From Halostagnicola larsenii XH-48 (GTDB lineage Archaea; Halobacteriota; Halobacteria; Halobacteriales; Natrialbaceae), in contig NZ_CP007057.1 of assembly GCF_000517625.1 (NCBI RefSeq), positions 186,001 through 250,000 on the forward strand: 64,000 nucleotides of DNA, in the 5' to 3' direction. Position numbers and translations under genes: made by a program. The first letter of the stretch is position 1; every line of letters begins with the position of its first letter. Positions 42,229-64,000 of this stretch are shown in pieces. The notes under the pieces are model-generated. The model searched no databases, was not told the origin of the DNA, and saw only the letters and a program-made list of their open reading frames with translations.

Positions 42229-42427
42229 TCACCCTCCTGTACTCTTCATTCAGGGCGAAATTAAACTGGTGTACTAGGAACATGTCCTAGACAATTCCCT
42301 GCCATCAATGTGGACTCGAGAGAGCGGGCTAAACAACGGCTAACGAATCTGTCTCTCCTTCTTGTCAATGAACCGCTGGGGGCTTGACTCCGAGGCACTC
42401 GGCCTGCTTTTTCTGAAGATAGCTTCC

Positions 42428-43808
42428 TTAAACGTGTCGCGTAACGTCGCCTGAGTCGAACAATTGCAAGTCATCGCGTTCGGATACAGCTTTCTGAACG
42501 AGCCGTGTTGCTCCGCTTCGTGTGAATAACGCGTATTTTGTATCTGTCTCACCAGTCTCTGGCGTCCAGCGGATTTCAGCGGCATGGTCGTCGAGTGAGG
42601 CGAGCGCACCATAGTCGAGGGGCGCATTGGTAAACTTGCACTCACCCACAACCATCGTCCCATCTTTGGTGAATCCGACGGCGTCAACCTCATACTCCTT
42701 GTACCACCAGCGGCCGATATTGAGGAACGTCTTCTCTGGGTAAAGGTTCGGCAGGGCGTCTGGCAACGTTTCTCGAATTCTTGACTAACGAAGTTGGCGA
42801 GTTCTGGTTCGATGACTGCGTCATACGCATCCTTACCCAGACGTTCATATCGATCTTCCTTGCCGTAGGCGAATCGGAACCAGAAACGGAACAAGGGATC
42901 CAAGAGACGATAGCGTCCGCAGCGTGACTTTGCTTTCTCTTCGGTGATCGGAACCTCTCGCTCGATAAGTCGCAGACGCACTAATTTCTGGGTATACGTT
43001 GAAATCTGTTTTCCATCGATATCCATTGCTTGGGCGATTTCGTTCGATGTCGTCTTTCCCGCGGCAATTGCGGTGAGGATCGCAAAGTATCGGTTCGGGT
43101 CCGTGAGTTCGGTCCGGAGCACGTACTCTGGTTTGTTGTGGAGATATCCTTCTGGGAGAGCACTTCTTCAGTGAGGACTGTTCCGAGGACCTGGTTGAGT
43201 TCGACACCATCGAGGTAGGACGGGACGCCGCCGAAGATACCCAACGTGATGATTCTCTCTTGAGGTGAATAGTCGTCCGAAACGAACTCTTGGGCAGCAG
43301 CAAAGTCAAGCGGACGGAGGTCGAGTCGTTCTGTGAATCGCTCATACAAGGGACTGTTCCCTAGAAGCGTTGCTTCTTCCATCATACTAATCGACGACCC
43401 AACTAGGATAAGTGTTCCCGAGGTGTTCTGAAACCGTTGGTCCCACAACCGCTGAATGACTGAGGGGAGGCTCCTATCGGCATTAATGAGGTAGGGGAAT
43501 TCGTCGAGGACTACGATCCCGTTCTGGTCACCGAGATATCCGAGCAGCGCTTCCCAGTTCTGTTTGATCTGCGTGATACGGGGAAAGGTCTCGGACGCGA
43601 CATCGACGAATTCATTGAGTTGTATCTGGGAGGTGGTTTCCGTGGCCTGATAGACGACTGCGTCCTCACGGTCGGAGAGCGAGTGTTGGACGAGCTGTGT
43701 CTTCCTGAGGCGTCGCCGACCGAAAATGACGATCATCTTGGCGCCGTCGGATTCGTAGCAACTGCGTAGCCGAGACAGTTCATCTTCCCGGTCTACGAAA
43801 TGCTCCAT
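42428..43808 (-). pseudogene. Archaeal ATPase (AAA, DUF234-type) pseudogene
   Basis: Three consecutive frames make up one ancestral gene: 43808 to ~43150 (FVDREDELSRLRSCYESDGA; IVVLDEFPYLINADRSLPSV), then ~43130 to ~42780 (RTELTDPNRYFAILTAIAAG; PLFRFWFRFAYGKEDRYERL), then 42766-42428 (EVDAVGFTKDGTMVVGECKF, the nuclease-like DUF234 part). Two frameshifts separate them. The Walker A loop reads FGRRRLRKTQ rather than GRRRVGKT, so the P-loop glycine is lost as well. Homologs are defence- or mobile-associated archaeal ATPases of unclear role. Confidence 0.75.
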
Positions 43809-44999: not shown

Positions 45000-45180
45000 G
45001 TGTAGATATTGTTGACAAGTTGACATCCTCCCCGCCCTGAAGGGCGAGGATTCCCGCGGTGGGATATTGTGGTTTACGGCGTTATGTGTTCTTGAGGTGC
45101 GAACGCACCAGTTTCCGTGTCAAACAAGAACGTCGATGGCTGTGCCAACCAGCCGTTACTCCTATCTCCCCCGTCACAGG
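45000..45180 (-). ncRNA. Predicted omegaRNA (reRNA) of the TnpB element
   Basis: In TnpB systems the guide RNA covers the 3' end of tnpB and the right end of the element, with the guide just outside. Here the right end has a hairpin CGCCCT/AGGGCG (45033-45046) and terminates with GGATGTCAA in the minus direction (45020-45028). The guide would therefore be read from the bases just below 45020. This is a positional prediction, not a sequence match. Confidence 0.35.
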
Positions 45181-46490
45181 AGAGACTCGGAGATACTTTC
45201 TGTCGAATGTTCTCAGCACCGTTTACATCCGCGTTCGCCACCGTCTCACACTCATCACAGACGTACAACCCGCGTTCAACACGGTTCGCCTTGCGCTCCC
45301 GGCCACAGCACGAACACGACTTCGACGTATCCCGCTCGGACACCTGCTCGACCGTGATGCCGTTCATCTCGGCTTTGTAGGTGAGCAGATCTGTGAAGCG
45401 GTCGAACGCCCACGAATGCAGGTTGAGGTTGCCGTGCTTACCCCAGTTTGTCGACTCGCCGTTCACCTCGTCCTCACGGATACCAGAGAGGTCGCCAACC
45501 ACAATCGTTCCAACACCTTCATCCACACACCGCTGAACGATGTGTTTGGAGAGGGTATGGAAGTAGTGGGTGCGACGAGCAGACTTCTTCTGGTGCAGCC
45601 GCGTGGCTTGCTCGGAGTCTGAGTCGTCACAGCGAGCGATCTGCTTGCTGAAGTAGTAGTCGTCCTGCTTCAGACAGTTCAGCGGGTACAGTTCGGCGTG
45701 ACCGTCTTCGTAGGCGAGTGCGGCGAAGTTGTTGATGCCGAGGTCAACACCCACTGTCTTCTCACCCGGGGCTTCGGATACTTCGACCTCGACTTTGCAC
45801 ACGAAGTGCAGTTCCCACTCGCCACCCGTCCAGACCGCCCGAACTTGTTGGACGCTCTCCACGGTAGAGAGGTCAACGTCGGGACGAGTTTGGTATTCGC
45901 AGAGGATGAAGTCCGACCAGTACTCCTTGAGGTTCGACCCCTTGGAGAGGCGGACGCGGTTGTACTGGGTGTCGAGTTTGAAGCCTTTCTGCTTGAACGT
46001 GACCGTCGAACGTGGGTGTTTGTCGGCGTGTTTGCGGTAGCCGGGCGGGTTCGTGTTCGTGTCGCCGTTGCGTCGTTTGCCGTACCAGCCGGTGAACGCC
46101 TCAGCGAGTTCTTGCAAAACGCGCTGACTTGACTGAGAATGGAGGTCATCATAGCGTTCGTGGCTCTTGAGGTAGGCGGTGAGTTCGTCGCCCTCGGGGA
46201 TGTAGTCGATTTCATCCCAGACACGACTGATTGTCCACCGTCCGACGTTCCAGAGTTTCGAGGCGGCGAACCCGAGTGAATCAAGGTCGTCAGACACCTG
46301 TTGCTGGTTCTGAATGGAAGCAGTGTAGGTGCGGGTGACGACCTGTTTCGCCATACGTAACCAATGTAGACAAACCTACTTGAAGGTGTGGATTACGCAG
46401 CGTGGAATATCCAGCCGTGCCATCGAACGGGGGACTGTGAAGGGGGAGTGTCGGATTCATCCCCGCGCTAAAGCACGGGGCTTTCTCCTT
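45020..46490 (-). mobile_element. IS200/IS605-group element encoding only TnpB
   Basis: The element has one gene (tnpB) and no tnpA. The right boundary is TTGACATCC at 45020-45028 next to a hairpin. The left part has the hairpin CCCCG...CGGGG at 46461-46480, a string common in front of haloarchaeal tnpB genes; the exact left boundary is uncertain by some tens of bases. Without a TnpA it would depend on a transposase encoded elsewhere. Confidence 0.7.
45074..46354 (-). CDS. tnpB: RNA-guided endonuclease TnpB (OrfB of IS200/IS605)
   Basis: 426 aa, full length and uninterrupted. RuvC-I is VGVDLGINNF with D204; the RuvC-II position reads VVGDLSGI (residues 285-292), where many TnpBs have EDL, so the catalytic Glu is absent from its usual place; acidic ERxDE-like residues follow at 294-296. 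The zinc finger is C347-x2-C350 and C366-x2-C369, and the last RuvC Asp is D376 in NADVNGAEN. TnpB cuts DNA under omegaRNA guidance. N-terminal residues 1-90 form the helical recognition part. Confidence 0.9.
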   Translation of the reverse strand: MAKQVVTRTYTASIQNQQQVSDDLDSLGFAASKLWNVGRWTISRVWDEIDYIPEGDELTAYLKSHERYDDLHSQSSQRVLQELAEAFTGWYGKRRNGDTNTNPPGYRKHADKHPRSTVTFKQKGFKLDTQYNRVRLSKGSNLKEYWSDFILCEYQTRPDVDLSTVESVQQVRAVWTGGEWELHFVCKVEVEVSEAPGEKTVGVDLGINNFAALAYEDGHAELYPLNCLKQDDYYFSKQIARCDDSDSEQATRLHQKKSARRTHYFHTLSKHIVQRCVDEGVGTIVVGDLSGIREDEVNGESTNWGKHGNLNLHSWAFDRFTDLLTYKAEMNGITVEQVSERDTSKSCSCCGRERKANRVERGLYVCDECETVANADVNGAENIRQKVSPSLSCDGGDRSNGWLAQPSTFLFDTETGAFAPQEHITP

Positions 46491-53295: not shown

Positions 53296-54069
53296 TTAAT
53301 CCGAATATTCGATGTTGAGTTCGATGACGTTAGCAGTGCTGCGGACGAGATCTGGCAGTGTTTGTTTGAAGGTCTCCCCCTGGAGTCTGGTCATCGGGCC
53401 AGACACACTGATCGCCCCAGCGACTTTGCCGTTGTTTTTCTTAATCGGCGCGGCTACGCACCGTAATCCGGGGAGTCGTTCTTCTCGGTCAAATGCGACT
53501 CCTCGGTCACGAACCTCCCCCAGCTCCGAAAACAACTCGTCGATATCCCCAATCGATTGTTTGGTAGATTGTCGCATGCCGCGAGCATCGATAATTTCTT
53601 TCGTTCGTTCTTCGGGAAGATGCGCAAGAATCGCCTTTCCTAACGCAGTCGTATGAAGCGGTGGACGACAACCAGCGTGAATGTCGACTTCAACGGCCTG
53701 TTCCCCTCTAGAGAGGTGCAAGTAGACACATCGTCCGTGCTCCTCTGTAGCGAGATTAACTAGTTCTCCCGTCTCAGCCGCGAGTTCTTCGACGTGTTCT
53801 CTCCCGATCGTATACAGCCGGCTCTGATTCCGTTGGTACTCACCAAGTTCGAGAAAACGCAACGACAATCGGTACTCGTCGTCTTCTTTGACGATGTATT
53901 CAGAGGCCTCGAGTGTGTTCAGATGATTGTGAACGACTCCCTTGCTCATATCGAGTGCAGTCGCCGCTTCGGTCACCCCTGCCCCATGGTTTTCTCGGAG
54001 GAACTCTAGAATTTCGAACGATCGAGCGGTCGTCCGCACCGGATAGTTGGGTTCTGTCTTCATATCCAT
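53296..54069 (-). CDS. IclR-family transcriptional regulator
   Basis: 257 aa from ATG 54069 (or 255 from 54063). HTH at ~8-70 (TTARSFEILEFLRENHGAGV; MSKGVVHNHLNTLEASEYIV); IclR effector domain ~85-250 (GREHVEELAAETGELVNLAT; ALGKAILAHLPEERTKEIID; LPGLRCVAAPIKKNNGKVAG). It is divergent from the enolase-superfamily gene at 54676 across 606 bp, and probably controls that cluster. It resembles the IclR gene at 15387-16157, which sits in the same position relative to another enolase-superfamily operon. Confidence 0.9.
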   Translation of the reverse strand: MDMKTEPNYPVRTTARSFEILEFLRENHGAGVTEAATALDMSKGVVHNHLNTLEASEYIVKEDDEYRLSLRFLELGEYQRNQSRLYTIGREHVEELAAETGELVNLATEEHGRCVYLHLSRGEQAVEVDIHAGCRPPLHTTALGKAILAHLPEERTKEIIDARGMRQSTKQSIGDIDELFSELGEVRDRGVAFDREERLPGLRCVAAPIKKNNGKVAGAISVSGPMTRLQGETFKQTLPDLVRSTANVIELNIEYSD

Positions 54070-54098
54070 GGGGTATGTACTCAATGTACAAAACTGTT

Positions 54099-54115
54099 GT
54101 TCTATCATGTAGAAC
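54099..54115. promoter_or_regulatory. Palindromic operator candidate upstream of the IclR gene
   Basis: GTTCTA-TCATG-TAGAAC is a perfect 6-bp inverted repeat 30 nt before the IclR start. Nearby AATGTACA (54083-54090) recurs within AATGTACATT at 54365-54374. Autoregulation by IclR proteins is common, so these are the first places to look. The rest of the 606-bp region 54070-54675 is AT-rich and gene-free. Confidence 0.4.
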
Positions 54116-54643
54116 TCGTTCCACGTGTTGCACGAAAGGTGTAGTAGTAATCGTCGTGTTTGGGTCCAGCCCTGTCATTGGCCTTTCCAGACCGAACGCT
54201 TGTTCCAGACGGCCATCTATGCGCTAACATGGCGACTCGTTAAAACGATGCTGACCAACTGATGTGGGGAGTTTAATCAAATGCCCTAACCATTATAGCC
54301 ACTACCAACCCCCATTGAGGAGATAATTAACGGACAGGATGGAACTCTACGTTCAGACATATAGAATGTACATTTTACGACCCCCATTTCCGTATTCGCA
54401 TACATTGGTATCGATGATAGATATTTGCACTGGTTGAATTCTAATTTACACACAATAACAGGCGATATCTTTATCGTGTGGCTGCATATTGTAATACAAT
54501 TGTCCTGTCTTGGGGTAGGGTGTTTGTGTGCGAGTCACATTGGCTGTTCACATATATAGAACGCATCGTCTGCTTTTCGTATAGAGCCTCAGACGATACA
54601 ATTCTGCCCCAGAAACTAATGCAATTCAACATGTATTTAGGGA

Positions 54644-54653
54644 CCTTTATAAT
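54644..54653 (+). promoter_or_regulatory. TATA box of the second sugar-acid cluster
   Basis: CCTTTATAAT ends 23 nt before the ATG at 54676, the same ten bases and spacing as at 16586-16595 before the GntP gene. A leaderless transcript is expected. Confidence 0.6.
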
Positions 54654-54675
54654 GCTGGTCTGTAAACCCATTCCT

Positions 54676-55851
54676 ATGGTACCGACGATAACGCGAATAG
54701 AGAGTCGAGAGTTTCAGTATCCGCTTGAGGACCTCGGAACGGATCAAAATGGCTTCAATCTCGTCTACGAACCAGGAGAGACGACGTGGCGGAAACTATT
54801 CGGAATCAAAATTCATACTGATACGGGAATTACTGGAGAGTACGTTGGCGGTAACTCACCGGCCGCTGCTCAGATTAATATGTTTGCGGACTTTCTCATC
54901 GGAAAGAACCCACTCAAGCGTGAAAAACACTGGAGCGAGATCAAGCGAGCCCTTCGGAAGTACGACCGAATGGGTATTGGACCGATTGATATCGCTCTCT
55001 GGGATTTTGCTGGTAAGTACTACGACGCACCGATCCACGAACTACTCGGAACGTATCGTGAATCGATTCCAGCTTACGCATCAACCTACCACGGCGACGA
55101 AAACGGCGGACTCGATTCGCCGGAAGCTTTTGCGGATTTTGCTGAAGAGTGCCTCGAGATGGGGTATCCGGGATACAAAATTCATGGCTGGGGTGGCAGC
55201 GATGCGAGTCGAAATATCGACCGCGAGATTGATTCGATCGCTGCTGTCGGCGAACGCGTCGGTGATGAGATGGACCTCATGTTCGATCCGGCCTGCGAAT
55301 ACGAAACGTTCGGGGATGCACTGAAAGTCGGGCGTGCACTCGACGAACAGGGGTTCTTCTGGTACGAAGACCCCTACCGCGACGGCGGGATATCAGAGCA
55401 GGGACACCGAAGGCTCCGCGAAAAATTGGATACACCGATCCTCCAGACCGAGCACGTTCGCGGCCTTGAGTCCCACGCAGATTTCGTCGTTGGCGACGGA
55501 ACCGATTTCGTACGTGCTGATCCAGAGTACGACGCGGGAATCACCGGCGCGATGAAGATCGTTCACATGGCAGAATCGTTCGGTCTCGATGTCGAGTTCC
55601 ACGCACCGGGTCCGGCACAGCGCCAGTGTATCGCAGCAACGCGGAACACGAACTACTACGAACTGGCGCTCGTTCACCCAAAGTGCCAGAATACGCAACC
55701 GCCGGTGTACAAGGGGGGATACTCCGACATGATTGAAACGGTCGACGAGAACGGCTACATCAGTATTCCAGACGGACCCGGTCTCGGCGTCGACTACGAC
55801 TGGGAGTATATCGAAGAAAACCAGACCGGTTCCCTTCACATCTACGAGTGA
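54676..55851 (+). CDS. Enolase-superfamily acid-sugar dehydratase-like enzyme
   Basis: 391 aa from ATG 54676; a long upstream extension would cross the TATA box. Active-site pattern: KIH at 168-170 (a KxH instead of KxK), D204 (LMFDPACEY), E231 (FWYEDP), E259 (LQTEH) and H309 (EFHAPGP). This fits a mandelate-racemase-subgroup dehydratase for an aldonic or uronic acid. The dehydrogenase gene starts 6 nt after its stop, so the two are co-transcribed. The substrate is not known; the GH88 enzyme nearby points to uronic-acid material. Confidence 0.85.
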   Translation: MVPTITRIESREFQYPLEDLGTDQNGFNLVYEPGETTWRKLFGIKIHTDTGITGEYVGGNSPAAAQINMFADFLIGKNPLKREKHWSEIKRALRKYDRMGIGPIDIALWDFAGKYYDAPIHELLGTYRESIPAYASTYHGDENGGLDSPEAFADFAEECLEMGYPGYKIHGWGGSDASRNIDREIDSIAAVGERVGDEMDLMFDPACEYETFGDALKVGRALDEQGFFWYEDPYRDGGISEQGHRRLREKLDTPILQTEHVRGLESHADFVVGDGTDFVRADPEYDAGITGAMKIVHMAESFGLDVEFHAPGPAQRQCIAATRNTNYYELALVHPKCQNTQPPVYKGGYSDMIETVDENGYISIPDGPGLGVDYDWEYIEENQTGSLHIYE

Positions 55852-55857
55852 TCAGCC

Positions 55858-56955
55858 ATGACATACAACGCTGGCATTATCGGAACCGGTGGTATCGCTG
55901 GGATGGGCATTCTCGGGATGCACGACGAATCGAAGATCGGCCACGAGAAAATTAGGGCCAGTCACGCCGGCGGCTTCGATGCCCAGGAAGCAATCGAACT
56001 CGTCGCAGTTGCGGATATCGACGAAGATAAACTCGAGCGTTTCGGCGAGGCGTGGGACATCGACGCTGATCGTCGGTACGTTGGACACGAGTTAATGCTT
56101 GAGAACGAATCACTTGACATCGTTTCGATCTGTACGCCGTCGTACTTGCACGACCGGCACGTCCTCGACGCGGCTCGATCCACAGCAGATCCCGATCTGA
56201 TCTGGTGTGAGAAACCGATCGCATCGGAAGTCACTGCCGCTCGCGAGATGATCGACGTTTGTGCAGAGTCCGATACCGAACTGCTTGTCAATCACTCGTT
56301 CCGGTTTACCGACAAACTCCGGCAGTTACGAATCCTCATTCACGACGAGGAGATACTGGGGGAGATCCATTCAGTGACGAGTCAGTTCCGGATGGAACTC
56401 CTTCGCAACTCGACGCACTTGCTCGATACGCTCGTCTATCTGCTTGACGCCCGCCCGGAGACCGTCTCTGGATACATTACGGGCGAAAACGAGGCCGTTG
56501 ATAGCCTCGGGGCGGATCAGCAAGTCGATGATTCTGGGGGCGGCGGGTTCGTCGTGATGGACGACGGCACGTTCGTGACTATCGACTGTACGATCCCTCG
56601 AGAGAGTTCCTCGATGACGTTGCAGTTCATCGGGAGCGAGGGCAAGTTGTACATGAACAACGACGACGGTGAATGGCGATACTGGCGGTTAGAGGACGGC
56701 GAACACGTCGAAGAACCGCTCCCGGGGATCGACGGCGCGTGGACGTGGGAAGACGATTATCAGCGTTCGTTCGAAAATGCGGCATCGCACATCGTCGACA
56801 TCCTCGATGGCCACGCCGAGAACGGGTCGCCCGGTGAAGAAGCGATGCGGTCTATCGAGATCATCATCGGGTTCTATCTCTCTCATCACACTGGTGCACA
56901 GATCGATCTCCCGGTGGCGAGACCGCTCCAGGACGTGTGTGTAACCTCGTGGTGA
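55858..56955 (+). CDS. Gfo/Idh/MocA-family oxidoreductase
   Basis: 365 aa. NAD(P)-binding fold GIIGTGGIAGMGIL (~6-19), SICTPSYLHDRHVLDAARST (~91-110), the EKPIASEVTAAREMI segment with the catalytic Lys (~119-133), and a C-terminal substrate domain with HLLDTLVYLLDA. Such enzymes oxidise sugars, inositols or their acids. Its start is 6 nt behind the enolase-superfamily gene. It is convergent with the CoA-transferase gene, 211 bp apart. A second family member is at 63029. Confidence 0.88.
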   Translation: MTYNAGIIGTGGIAGMGILGMHDESKIGHEKIRASHAGGFDAQEAIELVAVADIDEDKLERFGEAWDIDADRRYVGHELMLENESLDIVSICTPSYLHDRHVLDAARSTADPDLIWCEKPIASEVTAAREMIDVCAESDTELLVNHSFRFTDKLRQLRILIHDEEILGEIHSVTSQFRMELLRNSTHLLDTLVYLLDARPETVSGYITGENEAVDSLGADQQVDDSGGGGFVVMDDGTFVTIDCTIPRESSSMTLQFIGSEGKLYMNNDDGEWRYWRLEDGEHVEEPLPGIDGAWTWEDDYQRSFENAASHIVDILDGHAENGSPGEEAMRSIEIIIGFYLSHHTGAQIDLPVARPLQDVCVTSW

Positions 56956-57166
56956 TGCTGCTCAGAAGCGGGTAAACACCACGACTAATCGAAATACCTT
57001 CGTGCGAACGACGGACTGATTGGCTTGCCAGTGCTTTCTATCACTCAGTACACCATTTCTGCGTCGTCAGGAATCGCTCCGTTCACAAGTGAGTAGACAG
57101 GGCGGAGCTGGGTAGAGGAAACAATCTGGACGAGTGAGCAAATGTGATGGCCGGGGGGGGATCGCC

Positions 57167-58357
57167 TTACCGTCGATCAATCACGTCGTCTTCCTCGAGC
57201 GATCGGCGTTCTGATTCGTCGTAACCGAGTTCCGCGAGAACCTCGTCCGTGTTCTCACCGGCAGTCGGCGGATCGTACCGGACGGTCGCCGGCGTCTTCG
57301 AGTGTTCGACGGGAAACCCGGTCGTGGTGAACGTGCCGCCCTCGGGGTGTTCGAGCTCGATGAGCATGTCATTGTGCTCGACTTGCGGGTCTTTTGCGAC
57401 ATCCTGGAAATCGTTGACCGGGGCGGCCCAGATATCGGCCTCGAGCAACGTCTCGAGGAGTCCGTCTGTTGGCTGCTCTCGCGTGTAGGCCTCGAGCGTC
57501 CGCTTGATCTCGTCGCGGTGTTCGTATACCGCTTCCGGTGAGGTGTACTCGCTGAGTTCCTCGAGTCCGATCGTGTCGGCCAGGGTCTCCATCGGGGCCA
57601 TCGCGATCGCCAGAAAGCCGTCGATGGTTTCGTAGATGCCGTAAGGGCCGCCGAGCCACGCCTGGCCGATTCCCTCTTCACTGCGTTCGAACGATTCGTT
57701 CATATTGAGCGAGGCGGTGATCTCCTGACACTGCAGATCGAGCGCGGCGTTGAGGAGGTTGGCTTCGACGCGTTGTCCCTCTCCCGTCCGTTCTCGGTGA
57801 AAGAGCGCGATCATGGTGTGAAGCGCGATTAGCGTTGCGGAGTGTTCGTCGACGACCGCGGTGCCGACCGGCGTCGGCGGATCGTCGCGGCGGCCGGTGT
57901 AACGGGCGAGACCGGTCATCGACTGTAAGAGTAGATCTTGACCGGGCCGATCGGCATATGGGCCGTCGCGTCCGAACCCGTAGCCCGAGACGTAGACGAC
58001 CTCGGAATTAACCTCGCGGACGTCGTCGTACCCGAGTCCGAACCGATCCATGACGCTGGGACGGAAGTTTTCGACGACTACGTCTGCGTCAGCGGCGATC
58101 TCGAGGGCGATCTCTCGGCCGCGGTCGGATTTGAGATCGAGTGCGACGCTTCGCTTGTTGCGATTCATCGCGAGGAAGAATGGGCTGATCCCGTCGTAAA
58201 GTTCACCACCTGCCTCGAGCGACCGTTCCCACTCACCTCCGAGACGCTCGATTTTAATCACGTCGGCACCCATATCGGCGAGTTTCTGCGTCGCCCACGG
58301 CCCTTGCATCATTTGTGTGAAATCGGCGATTCGAACGTCTTCGAGTGCGCGCTCCAT
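57167..58357 (-). CDS. CaiB/BaiF family (class III) CoA transferase
   Basis: 396 aa. RIADFTQMMQGPWATQKLAD opens the protein; NRNKRSVALDLKSDRGREIA (~70-89) and GQDLLLQSMTGLARYTGR (~139-156), with the acyl-carrier Asp, are signatures of formyl-CoA- and succinyl-CoA-type transferases. It moves CoA between carboxylic acids without ATP. It is divergent from the GH88 gene with 60 bp between starts, so both probably share regulation. The presence in a sugar-acid cluster suggests that an acid intermediate is handled as a CoA ester. Confidence 0.88.
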   Translation of the reverse strand: MERALEDVRIADFTQMMQGPWATQKLADMGADVIKIERLGGEWERSLEAGGELYDGISPFFLAMNRNKRSVALDLKSDRGREIALEIAADADVVVENFRPSVMDRFGLGYDDVREVNSEVVYVSGYGFGRDGPYADRPGQDLLLQSMTGLARYTGRRDDPPTPVGTAVVDEHSATLIALHTMIALFHRERTGEGQRVEANLLNAALDLQCQEITASLNMNESFERSEEGIGQAWLGGPYGIYETIDGFLAIAMAPMETLADTIGLEELSEYTSPEAVYEHRDEIKRTLEAYTREQPTDGLLETLLEADIWAAPVNDFQDVAKDPQVEHNDMLIELEHPEGGTFTTTGFPVEHSKTPATVRYDPPTAGENTDEVLAELGYDESERRSLEEDDVIDRR

Positions 58358-58417
58358 AGCTCGTTCTCGTCGAGGCGGGTGATAAACATTATCGTGGTTG
58401 CGATACTCGAAGAGGGT

Positions 58418-59572
58418 ATGAGCGTTTCAACGAAGACATTGCGGGATGCGGCGGACGCGCTCGTCGCTCGAGTCGACCGAACCCTCGACGAAACGGGGAC
58501 GGCGTTTCCGTACTTCGTGGACGACGACGGTTCGTGGGTAACGACGCCGAACGGGAACTGGTGTGGCGGCCACTGGATCGGATTGTTGTGGTTTGCCCGT
58601 GATCACGTCGCGGACGACCGATCCGAGCGGTTCGAGCGCGCCGCGCGTGAACACACGGAAACGATGCGTTCGTATATGCCCCGCGAATCGATGTTTTGCG
58701 GGATGAACTTCTGTTACGCGGGATTTGGTGGGTACGATCGAACAGGTGACCGCGACCTGTTCGCGCTCGGCCTGATGGGTGCCGACGCCATGATCGAGCT
58801 CTACCACGAGCGGGCTCGACAGGTCGCGCTCGGCGGGCTCGACATCGCCGGACCGGAACAGTTTCGCGGTCCCGAGAGCGACCACGGCCCCTCCGGTCAT
58901 CGAATCGGTGCCGTGGACAACGTCTACACCGCGCTTCCGGTTCTCTGGCGGGTGTACGAGGAAACCGACGACCCCACCTTTCGCGATGTCGCCGTTTCAC
59001 ACGCCGACCGACACCTCGACTGGTACGTCCGCGAGGACGGCCGCACGTGGCACCACGTCGTCTTCGACCGCGAGACGGGGGCGCTCGAGCGTCAGTACAA
59101 CGAACTCGCCCACAGCGACGAGACGTGCTGGGCACGGGGTCAAGGGTGGAACGTCGCCGGATTGGCCCGAGCATATGACGAAACCCGCGCCGACCGGTAT
59201 CTCGACGCGCTCGAGCGGACGGTGGCGTACTATCGAGCAAACTCCCCCAACGACAAGGTCCCCTACTGGGACTTCGAAGCGCCGATCGACGACGAGTCGC
59301 CGCGAGACACGAGCGCGGCGGCCCTCGTCGCGTACGGATTGGGTCAGCTCCCCGATGTCGACGAGACTTATGAGCTCCGTTCCGACGGCGGCGATGTCCT
59401 CGAGACGCTCCTCGAAACGTACCTGGTAACGGATCGGGACGCGCCGAATTACGGCGCGATCGAACACAGTTGCTTCAACAAGCCCGGCGAGTACGCGACC
59501 GACACGGAGCACGTCTGGACCGACTATTACGTCGCTCGAGCCGTCGAACGCGAACTCGACCAGCGAACATGA
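58418..59572 (+). CDS. GH88-family unsaturated uronyl hydrolase-like glycosidase
   Basis: 384 aa from ATG 58418; the frame is open further upstream but only as antisense of the CoA-transferase gene. (alpha/alpha)6-barrel motifs: TPNGNWCGGHWIGLLWFARD (~42-61), HRIGAVDNVYTALPVLW with the putative catalytic Asp (~163-179), ETCWARGQGWNVAGLARAYD (~238-257). GH88/GH105 enzymes hydrate the C4-C5 double bond of unsaturated uronides left by polysaccharide lyases. No signal peptide, so the disaccharide would be cleaved inside the cell. The next gene overlaps by 4 bp. Confidence 0.83.
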   Translation: MSVSTKTLRDAADALVARVDRTLDETGTAFPYFVDDDGSWVTTPNGNWCGGHWIGLLWFARDHVADDRSERFERAAREHTETMRSYMPRESMFCGMNFCYAGFGGYDRTGDRDLFALGLMGADAMIELYHERARQVALGGLDIAGPEQFRGPESDHGPSGHRIGAVDNVYTALPVLWRVYEETDDPTFRDVAVSHADRHLDWYVREDGRTWHHVVFDRETGALERQYNELAHSDETCWARGQGWNVAGLARAYDETRADRYLDALERTVAYYRANSPNDKVPYWDFEAPIDDESPRDTSAAALVAYGLGQLPDVDETYELRSDGGDVLETLLETYLVTDRDAPNYGAIEHSCFNKPGEYATDTEHVWTDYYVARAVERELDQRT

Positions 59573-61197
59573 TTGGCTACGATCTCTCGAACCCGGCGAC
59601 TGACGACGAGTGGCCGACGTTCCAGTGGGACATCCCGGCGACGTTCAACATCGCGAGCGCCTGTCTCGACTCGCCGGCAACACGGACAGCGCTCCGATAC
59701 GTCGACGCCGATGGAGCCGGTACGACGATAACCTACGGCGACCTCGAGCGAGCGGTCTCGGCGACGGTCGCGGCGCTTTCGAACCACGATATCGGCGAGG
59801 GCGACCGCGTAGGCGTCTGTCTCCCGCAATGTCCGGAATTGCTCGTCGTCCACTTGGCGACACTGGCGCGCGGCGGAGTCGTCGTTCCACTCTCGATGCT
59901 CCTTGGCGACAGTCACCTCGAGCACGCACTCGAGCACAGCGACGTGTCTGCGCTGGTCGTCGACCATAGGAAGGCAAAACACCTCTCGGTCCGAACGCCG
60001 TCGAAAACGTTCGTCGTCGAACCGGCATCGGCGCGACGTCGCGACGCGCTGGGCGGACTCGCCGACTCTCTCGTAACCGACCCGGCTAACGGGCCAGATG
60101 AGGCGCTCCGCGTAGCCGAAACGACGCCGGACGACCCGGCGTTCGTGCTCTACACCTCCGGAACGACCGGGACGCCGAAGGGAGTCGTGCAGGGTCACCG
60201 GTACCTCATCGGGTCGTTGCCGGGCTACCAGTGTTGGTTCGAGTTATTCGGCCGGGAGACCGCACAGGAGAGCCGCGTGTGGACCCCGGCCGAGTGGGCC
60301 TGGGCGGGCGCCCTCTTCGATGTCGTCTATCCGACGCTCGCGCTGGGCGGAACCGTCGTGGCACAGGAGCGCCGGAGCGGGTTCGATCCCGAACGGGCGA
60401 CGCGGCTCGTGGATCGGACTGGCGTCACACACACCTTTATGCCGCCGACGGCGCTCGGCAAACTTCGAACCGAGGGCGTCGACGATGCCCTCGAGTCGCT
60501 CGAGGTCGTCAACTGTGGCGGCGAATCACTGTCGGCAGATCTGCGACGCTGGGCCACTCAGACGCTCGAGGTGACCGTCAACGAGGCGTACGGACAGACC
60601 GAGGCGAACGCGCTCGTCGGCGACTGTCGGAAAGCATATCCTGCCCGCGAGGAGGCCATGGGAAAACCCTATCCCGGCCACGACGTCCGCCTCGTCGACG
60701 AAGACAGTGAGTCGGTCGCCGACGGCGAGATCGGTCGGATCGCCCTCGACCCGTCCGACCCGGCGCTCTTCCTCGACTATCTCGGAGATTCCGACGCGAC
60801 GGCGGAGGCGTACTTCGAGAACGGCCTGTTTGATACCGGCGATCTGGCGGTTCGGGACGACGAGGGCTATCTCACACACCGCGGCCGAGCGGATGACCTG
60901 ATCATCACCTCCGGCTACCGCGTGAGTCCGCTCGAGATCGAGAACGCCTTAGCGGAGCATCCGAACGTCGCGGAAGCGGTCGTCGCTGGCGTTCCGGACG
61001 AGACTCGCGGTGAACGAGTGGCTGGAGCGGTCGTACCGGCCGATCGGGAGGCAGACAAGACGTTTCGCGAAGAACTTGAGCGCTCCGTTCGGGAACGGGT
61101 CGGACCGCACAAAGCGCCGCGGGAAATTCAGTTCGTGTCGTCGATTCCGGAGACAAGAACGGGCAAAGCCGATCGTGACGCGATTTTCGACCGGTAG
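59569..61197 (+). CDS. AMP-forming acyl-CoA synthetase
   Basis: 542 aa from ATG 59569, which overlaps the GH88 stop (ATGA). Adenylation motifs: YTSGTTGTPKGVVQGH (~193-208), the YGQTEAN acyl pocket motif (~340-346), FDTGDLAVRDDEGYLTHRGR (~420-439) and the C-terminal Lys in TRTGKADRD (~530-538). It is most like medium-chain/aromatic acyl-CoA and acetyl-CoA-type ligases. Translationally coupled to a glycoside hydrolase, an unusual pairing that again suggests CoA activation of an acid from uronide breakdown. Confidence 0.88.
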   Translation: MIGYDLSNPATDDEWPTFQWDIPATFNIASACLDSPATRTALRYVDADGAGTTITYGDLERAVSATVAALSNHDIGEGDRVGVCLPQCPELLVVHLATLARGGVVVPLSMLLGDSHLEHALEHSDVSALVVDHRKAKHLSVRTPSKTFVVEPASARRRDALGGLADSLVTDPANGPDEALRVAETTPDDPAFVLYTSGTTGTPKGVVQGHRYLIGSLPGYQCWFELFGRETAQESRVWTPAEWAWAGALFDVVYPTLALGGTVVAQERRSGFDPERATRLVDRTGVTHTFMPPTALGKLRTEGVDDALESLEVVNCGGESLSADLRRWATQTLEVTVNEAYGQTEANALVGDCRKAYPAREEAMGKPYPGHDVRLVDEDSESVADGEIGRIALDPSDPALFLDYLGDSDATAEAYFENGLFDTGDLAVRDDEGYLTHRGRADDLIITSGYRVSPLEIENALAEHPNVAEAVVAGVPDETRGERVAGAVVPADREADKTFREELERSVRERVGPHKAPREIQFVSSIPETRTGKADRDAIFDR

Positions 61198-61237
61198 CTC
61201 CGCAACGATTATTATCGACTCTCCCAACAAATGTGGT

Positions 61238-62473
61238 ATGCCAACGCTTCGATTCGTCGGACGTCCCTTCGAGGGATTCGAGCGAGCGCTTGAGCGACAG
61301 ATGGATTCGTTCGTGAACCAGTGCGACGAGGACGTCGAGTTCGTTCGCGATCACCGGCCGCTTCCGGAGATTCACGAGGAACTCATCGAGACAGGCGATA
61401 TCGCAGACGGCACGTACGATCTGTTTCTCTGTCTTAGCGACTGGTTGCCCGCGTCGGCCGACGCCGGCGACCTCCATCCGCTCGACGATTTGATCCGGTC
61501 CAATCCGCCCTCGGGCTGGCCCGACGGGTGGGCCGATAGCATGCGAACGCTCGTTACCTACGACGGAGCTACGTACGGTGTTCCCTACCACGACGGCCCC
61601 GAGCTGTTCCACTACCGGGAGGATCTCTTCGAAAACGTGGCAGAACAGCGTGCGTTTCGCGGGGAGTACGGCAGGCCGCTGTCAGTGCCTCGAACGTGGG
61701 CCGAGTTTCTCGAGGTCGCCGAGTTCTTCACGCGCCCGGAGGAAGACCTCTGGGGGACCGTCGTCGCCGCGTTGCCGGATGGGCACAACAACGTCTACGA
61801 TTTCCTGATCCACCTCTGGAGTCGCGGCGGAGAAGTTCTCGATGACACGGGACAACCAGCGTTCGATAGCGACGCGGCCCGGGATGCGCTGACGTACTAC
61901 CATGACCTGATTCACGAACACGAGGTCGCGCCACCGGAGTCCGTCGACCTCGAAAGCGTCGAGGTCGGACAATTCTACGCCGACGGGAAGGCGGCGATGA
62001 TGTGGAACTGGGCGGGATTCGGCGCCATGGCCGAAGCCGCGGATTCCGACGTGTTCGGTCACACGAACTACGGACTGATTCCGCGAGCGAAGACGGAGAA
62101 CGGAGAACATACGTCGCTGACTGTTCTCTATGGGTTGACGGTACCCGCTGGAAGCGATCACCCCGAACTCGCCTACGACTTCATCAGACACGCGACGACG
62201 CCCGAAAGCGACAAGATCACCACGCTCGAGGGCGCGTCCGGAACTCGATTCTCGACCTGGCGCGACCCCGAAATTCTGCGGACGAACTCGTTTTACTCCG
62301 TCACGGAGGAGATGAACACGAACGCCGTCAACACGTTACCACAGATTCCCGAGTACGTCGAGCTAAACGAGATCCTGAACGAGATGGTTGAGTCAGTCGT
62401 CGTCGACCAGCAACAGTCCCCGTCGGAAGCACTCTCGGATGCGAACCGTCGCGCCGAAGCGTTGCTCGAGTAG
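61238..62473 (+). CDS. Family-1 solute-binding-like protein lacking an export signal
   Basis: 411 aa from ATG 61238 (MPTLRFVGRPFEGFERALER). The SBP_bac_1 fold is recognisable: DLFLCLSDWLPASADAGDLH, YGVPYHDGPELFHYREDLFE, VPRTWAEFLEVAEFFTRPEE, and MMWNWAGFGAMAEAA. No Tat or Sec signal and no lipobox precede it, and no upstream start would add one. Either it acts in the cytoplasm or lost export. No permease or ATPase genes are near. It follows the ligase by 40 bp; its stop abuts the convergent MaoC stop. Confidence 0.82.
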   Translation: MPTLRFVGRPFEGFERALERQMDSFVNQCDEDVEFVRDHRPLPEIHEELIETGDIADGTYDLFLCLSDWLPASADAGDLHPLDDLIRSNPPSGWPDGWADSMRTLVTYDGATYGVPYHDGPELFHYREDLFENVAEQRAFRGEYGRPLSVPRTWAEFLEVAEFFTRPEEDLWGTVVAALPDGHNNVYDFLIHLWSRGGEVLDDTGQPAFDSDAARDALTYYHDLIHEHEVAPPESVDLESVEVGQFYADGKAAMMWNWAGFGAMAEAADSDVFGHTNYGLIPRAKTENGEHTSLTVLYGLTVPAGSDHPELAYDFIRHATTPESDKITTLEGASGTRFSTWRDPEILRTNSFYSVTEEMNTNAVNTLPQIPEYVELNEILNEMVESVVVDQQQSPSEALSDANRRAEALLE

Positions 62474-62926
62474 CTACGACTCGCGCTCGACGAGCGTGAT
62501 GTGTTTACAGACCAGTAGCGTCTCGCCGGCTTCGTCTTGGACCTCGTACTCGTAGACGACTCGACCGAGGTCGTCGTTGTACGGTTCTGTCTCGATGACT
62601 TTCCGGGAGGCAGAAATCGTCGTATCGACGAGAACGGGATCGACAAATCGGAGGTCATCGTACCCATACGAAAACGATCGTGGATTCATGTCCGCGACCA
62701 TCGCCTCGGCAATCGAGAAGACGAGGTTTCCGTGGGCGATTCGCCCATCGAAGTCGGATTCGGTAGCTGCCGTCTTGCTCATGTGAAGCGGGTGGAAGTC
62801 CGAGGAGATCCCTGCGAAGTTCACGATATCGGCTTCCGTTATCGTCCGTTGGTGGTCCACGCTGTATCGCTCTCCTTCCTCGATTGCTTCGAAGTACCGT
62901 TCGGTGTCTTTGGCTGGTGCGTCCAT
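62474..62926 (-). CDS. MaoC-family dehydratase
   Basis: 150 aa from ATG 62926. Hot-dog fold with the hydratase dyad in VNFAGISSDFHPLHMSKTAA (D and H, ~39-58) and AHGNLVFSIAEAM (~68-80). MaoC enzymes hydrate or dehydrate enoyl-CoA esters (R-specific) or act on mesaconyl- and related CoA esters. It is convergent, stop to stop, with the solute-binding-like gene. Together with the CoA transferase and ligase it provides the third CoA-ester enzyme in this cluster. Confidence 0.87.
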   Translation of the reverse strand: MDAPAKDTERYFEAIEEGERYSVDHQRTITEADIVNFAGISSDFHPLHMSKTAATESDFDGRIAHGNLVFSIAEAMVADMNPRSFSYGYDDLRFVDPVLVDTTISASRKVIETEPYNDDLGRVVYEYEVQDEAGETLLVCKHITLVERES

Positions 62927-62996
62927 GCGAGTGGTAGACACTCTACTGGAAGAGACCTTAATAGTACGGTTGGGTGCACACACAGGAAGTGCACAA

Positions 62997-63006
62997 ACAT
63001 ATATGG
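62997..63006 (+). promoter_or_regulatory. TATA box of the second Gfo/Idh/MocA gene
   Basis: ACATATATGG ends 22 nt before the ATG at 63029, again implying leaderless transcription. A minus-strand TATA-like TACTATTAAG (62958-62966 region) serves the divergent MaoC gene within the same 102-bp gap. Confidence 0.5.
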
Positions 63007-63028
63007 GGGCCGGTAGCAATCGGTCGGT

Positions 63029-64000
63029 ATGGTCGATCCGAATTACGATTACGTCGAGGAGTACGGCAGGTACGATCACTACGACATCGGTATCGTCGGC
63101 TGCGGTGAGATCGTCCAGAGCGCCCATCTCCCGGCGTACGACGACGCCGGGTTTTCTGTCGTCGGGGTCACGGATGTAGACGAACAACGAGCACTCGAAG
63201 TCGCGGAAACGTTCGATCTCGAAGCCTATCCAAGCGTCGAGGTGATGGCCGAGCAGGTGGATGTCGTCGATATCGCGATTCCTCCCCAGTACCAACGTGA
63301 AATCGTCGAGACGGTCATTGGCGCCGGTTGTCACGTCCTGTGTCAGAAGCCGCTCGCGATGGCGTTCGACGACGCGAACGCGATCCGTGACACCATCGCC
63401 GAGGCGGACGTGATTGCGGCTGTCAACCAGCAAATGCGCTGGGAGAAGTCCATCCGAGCGGTATCGGAACTCCTCGAGAAGGGCGCGCTCGGAACGCCGC
63501 TCCGGGGGACAATCGATGTCAACATCGAAACCGACTGGGCGAACTGGGGATGGATGCTTGCCGCACCGCGACTCGAAGTGTTGTTCCACAGTGTCCACTA
63601 TCTGGACGCCTTGCGATACCTTTTCGGCGATCCAGACGGCGTCTACTCGCTGATGGCACGGGATCCGGCACAGGAGGCAAACGGCGAGACGCGGACGACA
63701 CACACGTTGACCTATCCCGACCAGCTCCGCGCGGTCGTCGACGTCAATCACAACAATTGGGCCGATCCATACGCTCGCTTCCGCTTCGAGGGGACCAAGG
63801 GGGTCGCTCGTGGAACGATCGGACTCTTCGATTACTATCCGGACAGTGGCCCGGACACGTTCGAGTTCCGGTCCCGATCGGCCGAAGCATGGGAAACCCA
63901 CGAGGTCCCCGACGCATGGTTCCCGGATGCGTTCATCGGGACGATGGGATCGTTGCTACGCGCGATCGACGAGGGAACAACGCCGCCGACCAACCCCGAC
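63029..64000 (+). CDS. Gfo/Idh/MocA-family oxidoreductase, 3' end beyond the window
   Basis: At least 324 codons from ATG 63029, open to the window end. NAD(P)-binding fold DIGIVGCGEIVQSAHLPAYD (~20-39), VVDIAIPPQYQREIVE, and the CQKPLAMAFDDANAI segment with the conserved Lys (~111-125); substrate domain with LFHSVHYLDALRYLFGDPDG. The N-terminal extension of about 19 tyrosine- and acid-rich residues is unusual. It is divergent from MaoC. Like the dehydrogenase at 55858 it is expected to oxidise a sugar or sugar acid. Confidence 0.85.
   Translation, partial: MVDPNYDYVEEYGRYDHYDIGIVGCGEIVQSAHLPAYDDAGFSVVGVTDVDEQRALEVAETFDLEAYPSVEVMAEQVDVVDIAIPPQYQREIVETVIGAGCHVLCQKPLAMAFDDANAIRDTIAEADVIAAVNQQMRWEKSIRAVSELLEKGALGTPLRGTIDVNIETDWANWGWMLAAPRLEVLFHSVHYLDALRYLFGDPDGVYSLMARDPAQEANGETRTTHTLTYPDQLRAVVDVNHNNWADPYARFRFEGTKGVARGTIGLFDYYPDSGPDTFEFRSRSAEAWETHEVPDAWFPDAFIGTMGSLLRAIDEGTTPPTNPD

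Follow-up and report, generated by a model that had tools for sequence, protein, structure and literature searches.

Sugar-acid and coenzyme A-thioester genes in a conserved cluster of Halostagnicola larsenii

The question raised by the locus

Why should genes for sugar-acid breakdown be interspersed with genes for coenzyme A (CoA) ester chemistry? This is the arrangement at the right end of the 64,000-nucleotide stretch of Halostagnicola larsenii XH-48 analysed here (the window, G000:C3:186001-250000), which is part of a 464,581-bp contig, C3, of a 4.13-Mb haloarchaeal genome. The genes concerned encode a putative enolase-superfamily dehydratase, two dehydrogenases, a protein with the fold of glycoside hydrolase family 88 (GH88), an AMP-forming acyl-CoA ligase, a class III CoA-transferase (CaiB), a MaoC-type hydratase and a solute-binding protein (SBP) that lacks a leader. 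An original prediction, made from the sequence alone, held that an acid released from unsaturated uronides is CoA-activated and hydrated here. Its proposal that the sugar-acid and CoA genes belong together is upheld, as the association is found in several haloarchaeal families and persists where the genes are rearranged.

The core of the locus, comprising CaiB, the leaderless SBP, MaoC and the second Gfo/MocA dehydrogenase (MocA2), occurs repeatedly as an operon, in ten or more phyla. We put at about one half the probability that this region forms the front half of an island for the sugars of plant or algal polysaccharides, most likely L-fucose or a 6-deoxy or pectin sugar related to it, with a widely conserved CoA-thioester module that the GH88-fold protein and the ligase have joined in the haloarchaea. 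This best explanation is based on gene content, conserved linkage, intact active-site residues in CaiB and MaoC, and missing signal peptides.

Gene organization

The genes and candidate operators of the region are listed by window position.

53296-54108, − strand: iclR, IclR-family regulator (IclR_C, 136 bits)
54099-54115: inverted repeat GTTCTA-N5-TAGAAC, a perfect palindrome and putative IclR operator
54546-54562: imperfect second copy of this repeat, candidate operator
54676-55851, + strand: eno, putative enolase-superfamily (MR/MLE) sugar-acid dehydratase (MR_MLE_C, 141 bits)
55858-56955, + strand: mocA1, Gfo/Idh/MocA dehydrogenase 1 (GFO_IDH_MocA, 58.8 bits), starting 6 bp past eno
57167-58357, − strand: caiB, class III (CaiB/BaiF) CoA-transferase (CoA_transf_3, PF02515, 350 bits), module core
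58418-59572, + strand: gh88, GH88-fold protein
59569-61197, + strand: AMP-forming acyl-CoA ligase (AMP-binding, 230 bits, plus C-terminal domain)
61238-62473, + strand: sbp, leaderless protein of periplasmic-binding-protein fold (SBP_bac_1, 119 bits), module core
62474-62926, − strand: maoC, single-domain MaoC hydratase/dehydratase (MaoC_dehydratas, PF01575, 79 bits), module core
63029 to about 64108, + strand: mocA2, Gfo/Idh/MocA dehydrogenase 2, crossing the window end at 64000

All of the genes named in the original prediction are present, with iclR mostly outside the start that it gave to the cluster, and sbp was overlooked. The predicted 4-bp overlap of gh88 and the ligase gene is real (ATGA, 59569-59572), and these two genes form a single + strand run with sbp, which follows after a 40-bp gap. 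The genes caiB and gh88 are divergent with 60 bp between them, and maoC and sbp are convergent. Past the window end the island continues with rhaM, a lactonase-type amidohydrolase, a GH29 alpha-L-fucosidase predicted to be exported by the Tat system, a CUT2-type ABC importer, a short-chain dehydrogenase/reductase (SDR) and a large GH2 protein; the fucosidase (PF01120, 303 bits) and the RhaM-family mutarotase (PF05336, 60 bits) are thus in the same island as the window genes.

Linkage across haloarchaea

Among 391 genomes of the class, a close clade of the GH88-like protein is found in 15, and the conserved neighbourhood anticipated by the original prediction is evident: all 12 genomes with the ligase clade and all nine with the SBP clade also hold the GH88-like clade (hypergeometric, 2e-20 and 9e-15, respectively), nearly always within 10 kb. 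Since gene order and strand vary among these loci, which span several families, while the genes stay linked, the pattern argues for selection on the linkage. Two loci of a distant GH88 clade (L055 and L056) contain none of the CoA partners.

Genome G104, of a second haloarchaeon, retains the series iclR-eno-mocA1-caiB-sbp-maoC-mocA2-rhaM-amidohydrolase-CUT2-SDR with no gh88 or ligase gene between caiB and sbp; its gh88 and ligase genes belong to a second cluster, lying 5-10 kb upstream, in which a crotonase replaces MaoC. Because the cluster is kept in this form, gh88 and the ligase gene form a pair that is separable from the conserved core, caiB-sbp-maoC-mocA2.

We note that contig G040:C18 has two near-identical copies of a caiB-GH88-like segment (L044 and L045), separated by approximately 156 kb. 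An ABC importer adjoins one copy and a TRAP-type transporter the other; the segment was recently duplicated, and its copies have different transport contexts. The H. larsenii genome also carries a further sugar-acid/pectin cluster (L169:1-18000, G000:C2:138001-156000) in which canonical GH88/GH105 genes are accompanied by genes for an amidohydrolase, a diketo-acid hydrolase and GH28-like proteins; most of these labels come from reading of the sequence.

The core module in bacteria

When 84,980 species genomes were scanned, 398 related stretches emerged, and the module counts given here are from the best 80 of these, with partner genes counted within 10 kb of the SBP; the counts are uncorrected for relatedness, many of the loci being from Flavobacterium and Hymenobacter, and the open reading frame (ORF) calls are mechanical in high-GC loci. 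The 80 loci derive from haloarchaea, Chloroflexota, Bacillota, Actinomycetota, Latescibacterota, Dormibacterota, Planctomycetota, Armatimonadota, Gemmatimonadota, Acidobacteriota and Bacteroidota. A MocA2 homologue is present in 70, CaiB in 66 (two copies in 38), MaoC in 65 and a second leaderless SBP in 59, and the ligase and GH88-like genes are essentially limited to the haloarchaea. The operon order SBPA-CaiA-CaiB-SBPB-Gfo-MaoC is seen in Bacteroidota, Bacillota, Chloroflexota, Actinomycetota, Acidobacteriota and others, and a plasmid search with the SBP revealed operons in Rufibacter, Persicobacter and Croceibacterium with SBP and CoA-transferase pairs, MaoC and Gfo. A second type of locus (Variovorax, Sinorhizobium and Martelella), with a crotonase, a DUF4432-type epimerase and an SDR, matches the second haloarchaeal type.

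The catalytic Asp170 of CaiB (Asp169 of Frc) is kept in at least 93 % of 105 module homologues, and the Asp43/His48 dyad of the MaoC hotdog domain in at least 93 % of 68; CaiB meets no equivalog cut-off. In a CaiB tree the haloarchaeal proteins are a clade of their own, apart from both bacterial types, and within it the MaoC-type and crotonase-type loci group together with support of 85/87, which is not strong; the tree yields no substrate, and two CaiB paralogues of the H. larsenii genome are on very long branches that make their placement unreliable. In Sinorhizobium meliloti strains, pSymB encodes a CoA-transferase coupled with a leaderless SBP of this module (L148:12841-15134), and these strains offer a tractable bacterial model.

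The leaderless SBP

None of 57 SBPA and 79 SBPB sequences has a hydrophobic N-terminus, and no secretion signal or lipobox is present. The AlphaFold model of the SBP (predicted local distance difference test, pLDDT, 94.3) has its first strand at residues 3-8 and an ordinary sugar-SBP fold (template-modelling score, TM, 0.82-0.90 against sugar SBPs). As the N-terminus is not hydrophobic and the first strand begins at residue 3, a cytosolic location is predicted for these proteins in spite of their sugar-binding fold. The motifs HDGPE, PDGHN and STW are invariant over many phyla. The bacterial partner SBPA was not found in the H. larsenii genome.

The GH88-fold protein and the ligase

The Pfam GH88 match scores 43 bits and covers only part of the protein, but phmmer aligns it over nearly its full length with solved unsaturated glucuronyl hydrolases (UGLs; 2ahf/1vd5, E about 1e-31). 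Its AlphaFold model (mean pLDDT 75.8) has the (alpha/alpha)6 UGL fold, with TM 0.79-0.81 against 2fv0/1vd5 (about 0.8), and contains a long extra loop, residues 131-166, whose structure is uncertain. The equivalent of the UGL catalytic Asp149 is retained as D167, inside an invariant GAVD motif, whereas the catalytic Asp88 is lost throughout the clade, with SMFCGMNF standing where THDLGF is expected; distant canonical haloarchaeal GH88 proteins retain both THDLGF and the Asp149 motif. Because Asp88 is missing and only D167 is kept, we would not call this protein an unsaturated uronyl hydrolase. The ligase has the motifs YTSGTTG, TGD and a C-terminal GK, and its best models are short-chain acyl-CoA synthetases, MbcS and acetate-CoA ligase (275 bits each), although both scores fall far under the equivalog cut-offs.

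Sugar context

Within the island itself GH29 and RhaM favour fucose. A FucP-type permease adjoins the module in 36 of the 80 loci, all of them in Bacteroidota, and 15 loci of the Flavobacterium type have L-fucose dehydrogenase, a lactonase and an FAH diketo-acid hydrolase; in the F. johnsoniae locus FucP and L-fucose dehydrogenase exceed curated cut-offs, and fuconolactonase-like and diketo-acid hydrolase genes are present too. On Labrenzia and Martelella plasmids a MaoC-CaiB-SBPA set lies beside genes for L-fuconate dehydratase, RhaM, an amidohydrolase, FAH and IclR. Apionate-type kinase and RuBisCO-like genes occur in 9-10 loci, including that of Natronoglomus (L063), and GH106 (11 loci) and GH127 (6 loci) are found beside the module in Bacteroidota. 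Since the module is adjoined by FucP/fucose, apionate, GH106 and GH127 genes, pectin-type polymers with fucose, rhamnose and apiose are suggested as the source.

In Natronoglomus mannanivorans, Asp/Glu racemase-like, RuBisCO-like and 3-oxo-isoapionate-kinase-like genes stand beside the module (L063:18774-21230), whose opposite side has genes for a GlcD-type oxidase and an aminotransferase; these could constitute a haloarchaeal apiose pathway. We also considered that the CoA genes substitute for fuconate dehydratase, which is absent from the Flavobacterium operon, and rejected this, as Labrenzia and Martelella have both.

Several points weigh against assigning the region to L-fucose or a related sugar with a CoA-thioester module. 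The amidohydrolase scores 49 bits against a fuconolactonase cut-off of 400, the enolase-superfamily gene is not recognized as a fuconate dehydratase, and the module also adjoins apionate genes where fucose genes are absent. The operator-like palindrome spans only iclR/eno and not the CoA genes, and the separate clade of haloarchaeal CaiB proteins means that their function may have shifted.

Alternative explanations

If the GH88 protein were an enzyme that cleaves unsaturated uronides, the ligase and CoA-transferase could convert the released acid to a CoA ester for hydration by MaoC, as originally proposed. The translational coupling of gh88 to the ligase gene and their 12/12 co-occurrence are consistent with this, and UxuA-type and RraA genes are also present in some Haloarcula loci, but the whole clade lacks the Asp88 that canonical relatives retain, neither GH88 nor the ligase accompanies the core in many bacterial phyla, and its neighbours there are L-fucose, apionate and rhamnosidase genes. 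We regard the uronide source as quite improbable, and reject a uronide pathway for this cluster on the missing Asp88 and the neighbouring genes; CoA activation of an acid followed by its hydration is plausible.

It is doubtful that the ligase, CoA-transferase and MaoC simply process acetate, propionate or lactate from a sugar pathway and are mere neighbours of the sugar genes. The best ligase models point in this direction, a D-lactate dehydrogenase adjoins the Croceibacterium locus, and oxidative fucose routes finish at pyruvate and lactate; against this are the shortfall from the equivalog cut-offs, the confinement of the ligase clade to genomes with the GH88-like clade, and the leaderless SBPs and conserved Gfo partner, which would be left unexplained. 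The SBP-fold proteins could instead be enzymes, and the module a new pathway that degrades an unusual pectin sugar of acidic or branched type, for example L-aceric acid; in favour of this the invariant motifs, the missing signal peptides, the apionate kinase and RuBisCO-like genes (one haloarchaeon included) and the GH106 and GH127 neighbours may be cited. We think this improbable, as a direct link to aceric acid is absent, the fold is that of an ordinary sugar SBP whose conserved residues may merely shape the ligand pocket, and it is not obvious how MaoC would act on a carboxyl that has a tertiary alpha-hydroxyl.

Comparison with known systems

Our literature search, which fell short of most subscription journals, found no paper on a leaderless-SBP/CaiB/MaoC/Gfo module, nor a description of the module in work on CaiB with fucose, fuconate, MaoC, aceric acid or apionate. 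The earlier view that no described pathway fits needs qualification: CoA-bound catabolism of a sugar acid has one precedent, in that deoxyribonate breakdown in Klebsiella michiganensis is proposed to use a CoA-synthetase and CoA-bound intermediates (PMC6365646). The Klebsiella cluster is similar in treating a sugar acid as a CoA thioester and in combining a CoA-synthetase and a CoA-transferase; it differs in having its own beta-hydroxyacyl-CoA dehydrogenase, thiolase and glycerate kinase, and no MaoC, leaderless SBP or GH88-like protein is listed in its description (PMC6365646).

The oxidative (non-phosphorylating) L-fucose pathway, the genes of which adjoin the module in Flavobacterium, Labrenzia and Martelella, shares with the island a mutarotase, a lactonase-type amidohydrolase, an enolase-superfamily dehydratase and dehydrogenases, but its last enzyme is a diketo-acid hydrolase and CoA enzymes take no part in it, and the window enzymes score under the fucose-specific cut-offs. 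The haloarchaeal methylaspartate cycle likewise pairs a class III CoA-transferase with a MaoC-family hydratase (succinyl-CoA:mesaconate CoA-transferase and mesaconyl-CoA hydratase), although the window MaoC is single-domain and stands in a sugar context; assignment to this cycle was rejected on scores of 241.9 against 700 bits for the CoA-transferase (NF041294) and 26 against 560 bits for MaoC.

Regulator, candidate operators and enolase gene

The IclR-family regulator does not reach the BhcR, PcaR or KdgR equivalog cut-offs. Its true start codon is probably downstream of the annotated ATG, so that the palindrome falls in the iclR leader. With up to two mismatches, GTTCTA-N5-TAGAAC has five matches in the window against 1.4 expected, and the only two of these within the cluster are the listed copies, which flank the iclR-eno spacer. 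The closest solved structures to the enolase-superfamily protein are 1rvk/4hcd (182 bits); it meets no NCBIfam equivalog cut-off, and orthology with the Labrenzia MLE protein was rejected at an identity of only 23 %. The gene is followed by mocA1 in G104 also. A 76 % identical paralogue on the main chromosome (G000:C1:667328-668479; L161, L168) stands without mocA1 or CoA genes. Elsewhere in the window, 45074-46354 reads as a TnpB-like ORF (IS200/IS605 family), and two overlapping frames at 42340-43808 resemble a single archaeal ATPase gene split by a frameshift.

Proposed pathway and implications

Under the fucose-type reading with a CoA-thioester module, we infer a substrate, an order of steps, a CoA-ester intermediate and roles for the SBP and GH88-like proteins. 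The sugar would be freed extracellularly by GH29 and GH2, imported by the CUT2 system and oxidized by the MocA and SDR dehydrogenases, and the lactone would be opened by the amidohydrolase and the sugar acid dehydrated by the enolase-superfamily enzyme. The resulting acid would become a CoA thioester, through the ligase with ATP or through CaiB from another acyl-CoA, to be hydrated or dehydrated by MaoC and then cleaved to central metabolites. The leaderless SBP may hold the sugar or sugar acid in the cytosol, or may have turned into an enzyme.

A broader possibility, which we advance tentatively and consider rather unlikely as it stands, is that cytosolic leaderless SBPs and paired class III CoA-transferases form a cross-domain module, in at least ten phyla, that degrades a deoxy or branched pectin sugar via CoA thioesters, the SBPs perhaps being enzymes or obligate partners of the CoA-transferases. 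If so, this module would be an undescribed sugar pathway with a new role for the SBP fold. Should the CoA-thioester module act as proposed, the pectin/fucose loci of many bacterial phyla and haloarchaea would share an unassigned step leading from sugar oxidation to CoA-thioester chemistry. It would also give a function to hundreds of proteins annotated as extracellular solute-binding yet lacking an export signal, and could supply a missing part of the route by which complex pectin sugars are degraded.

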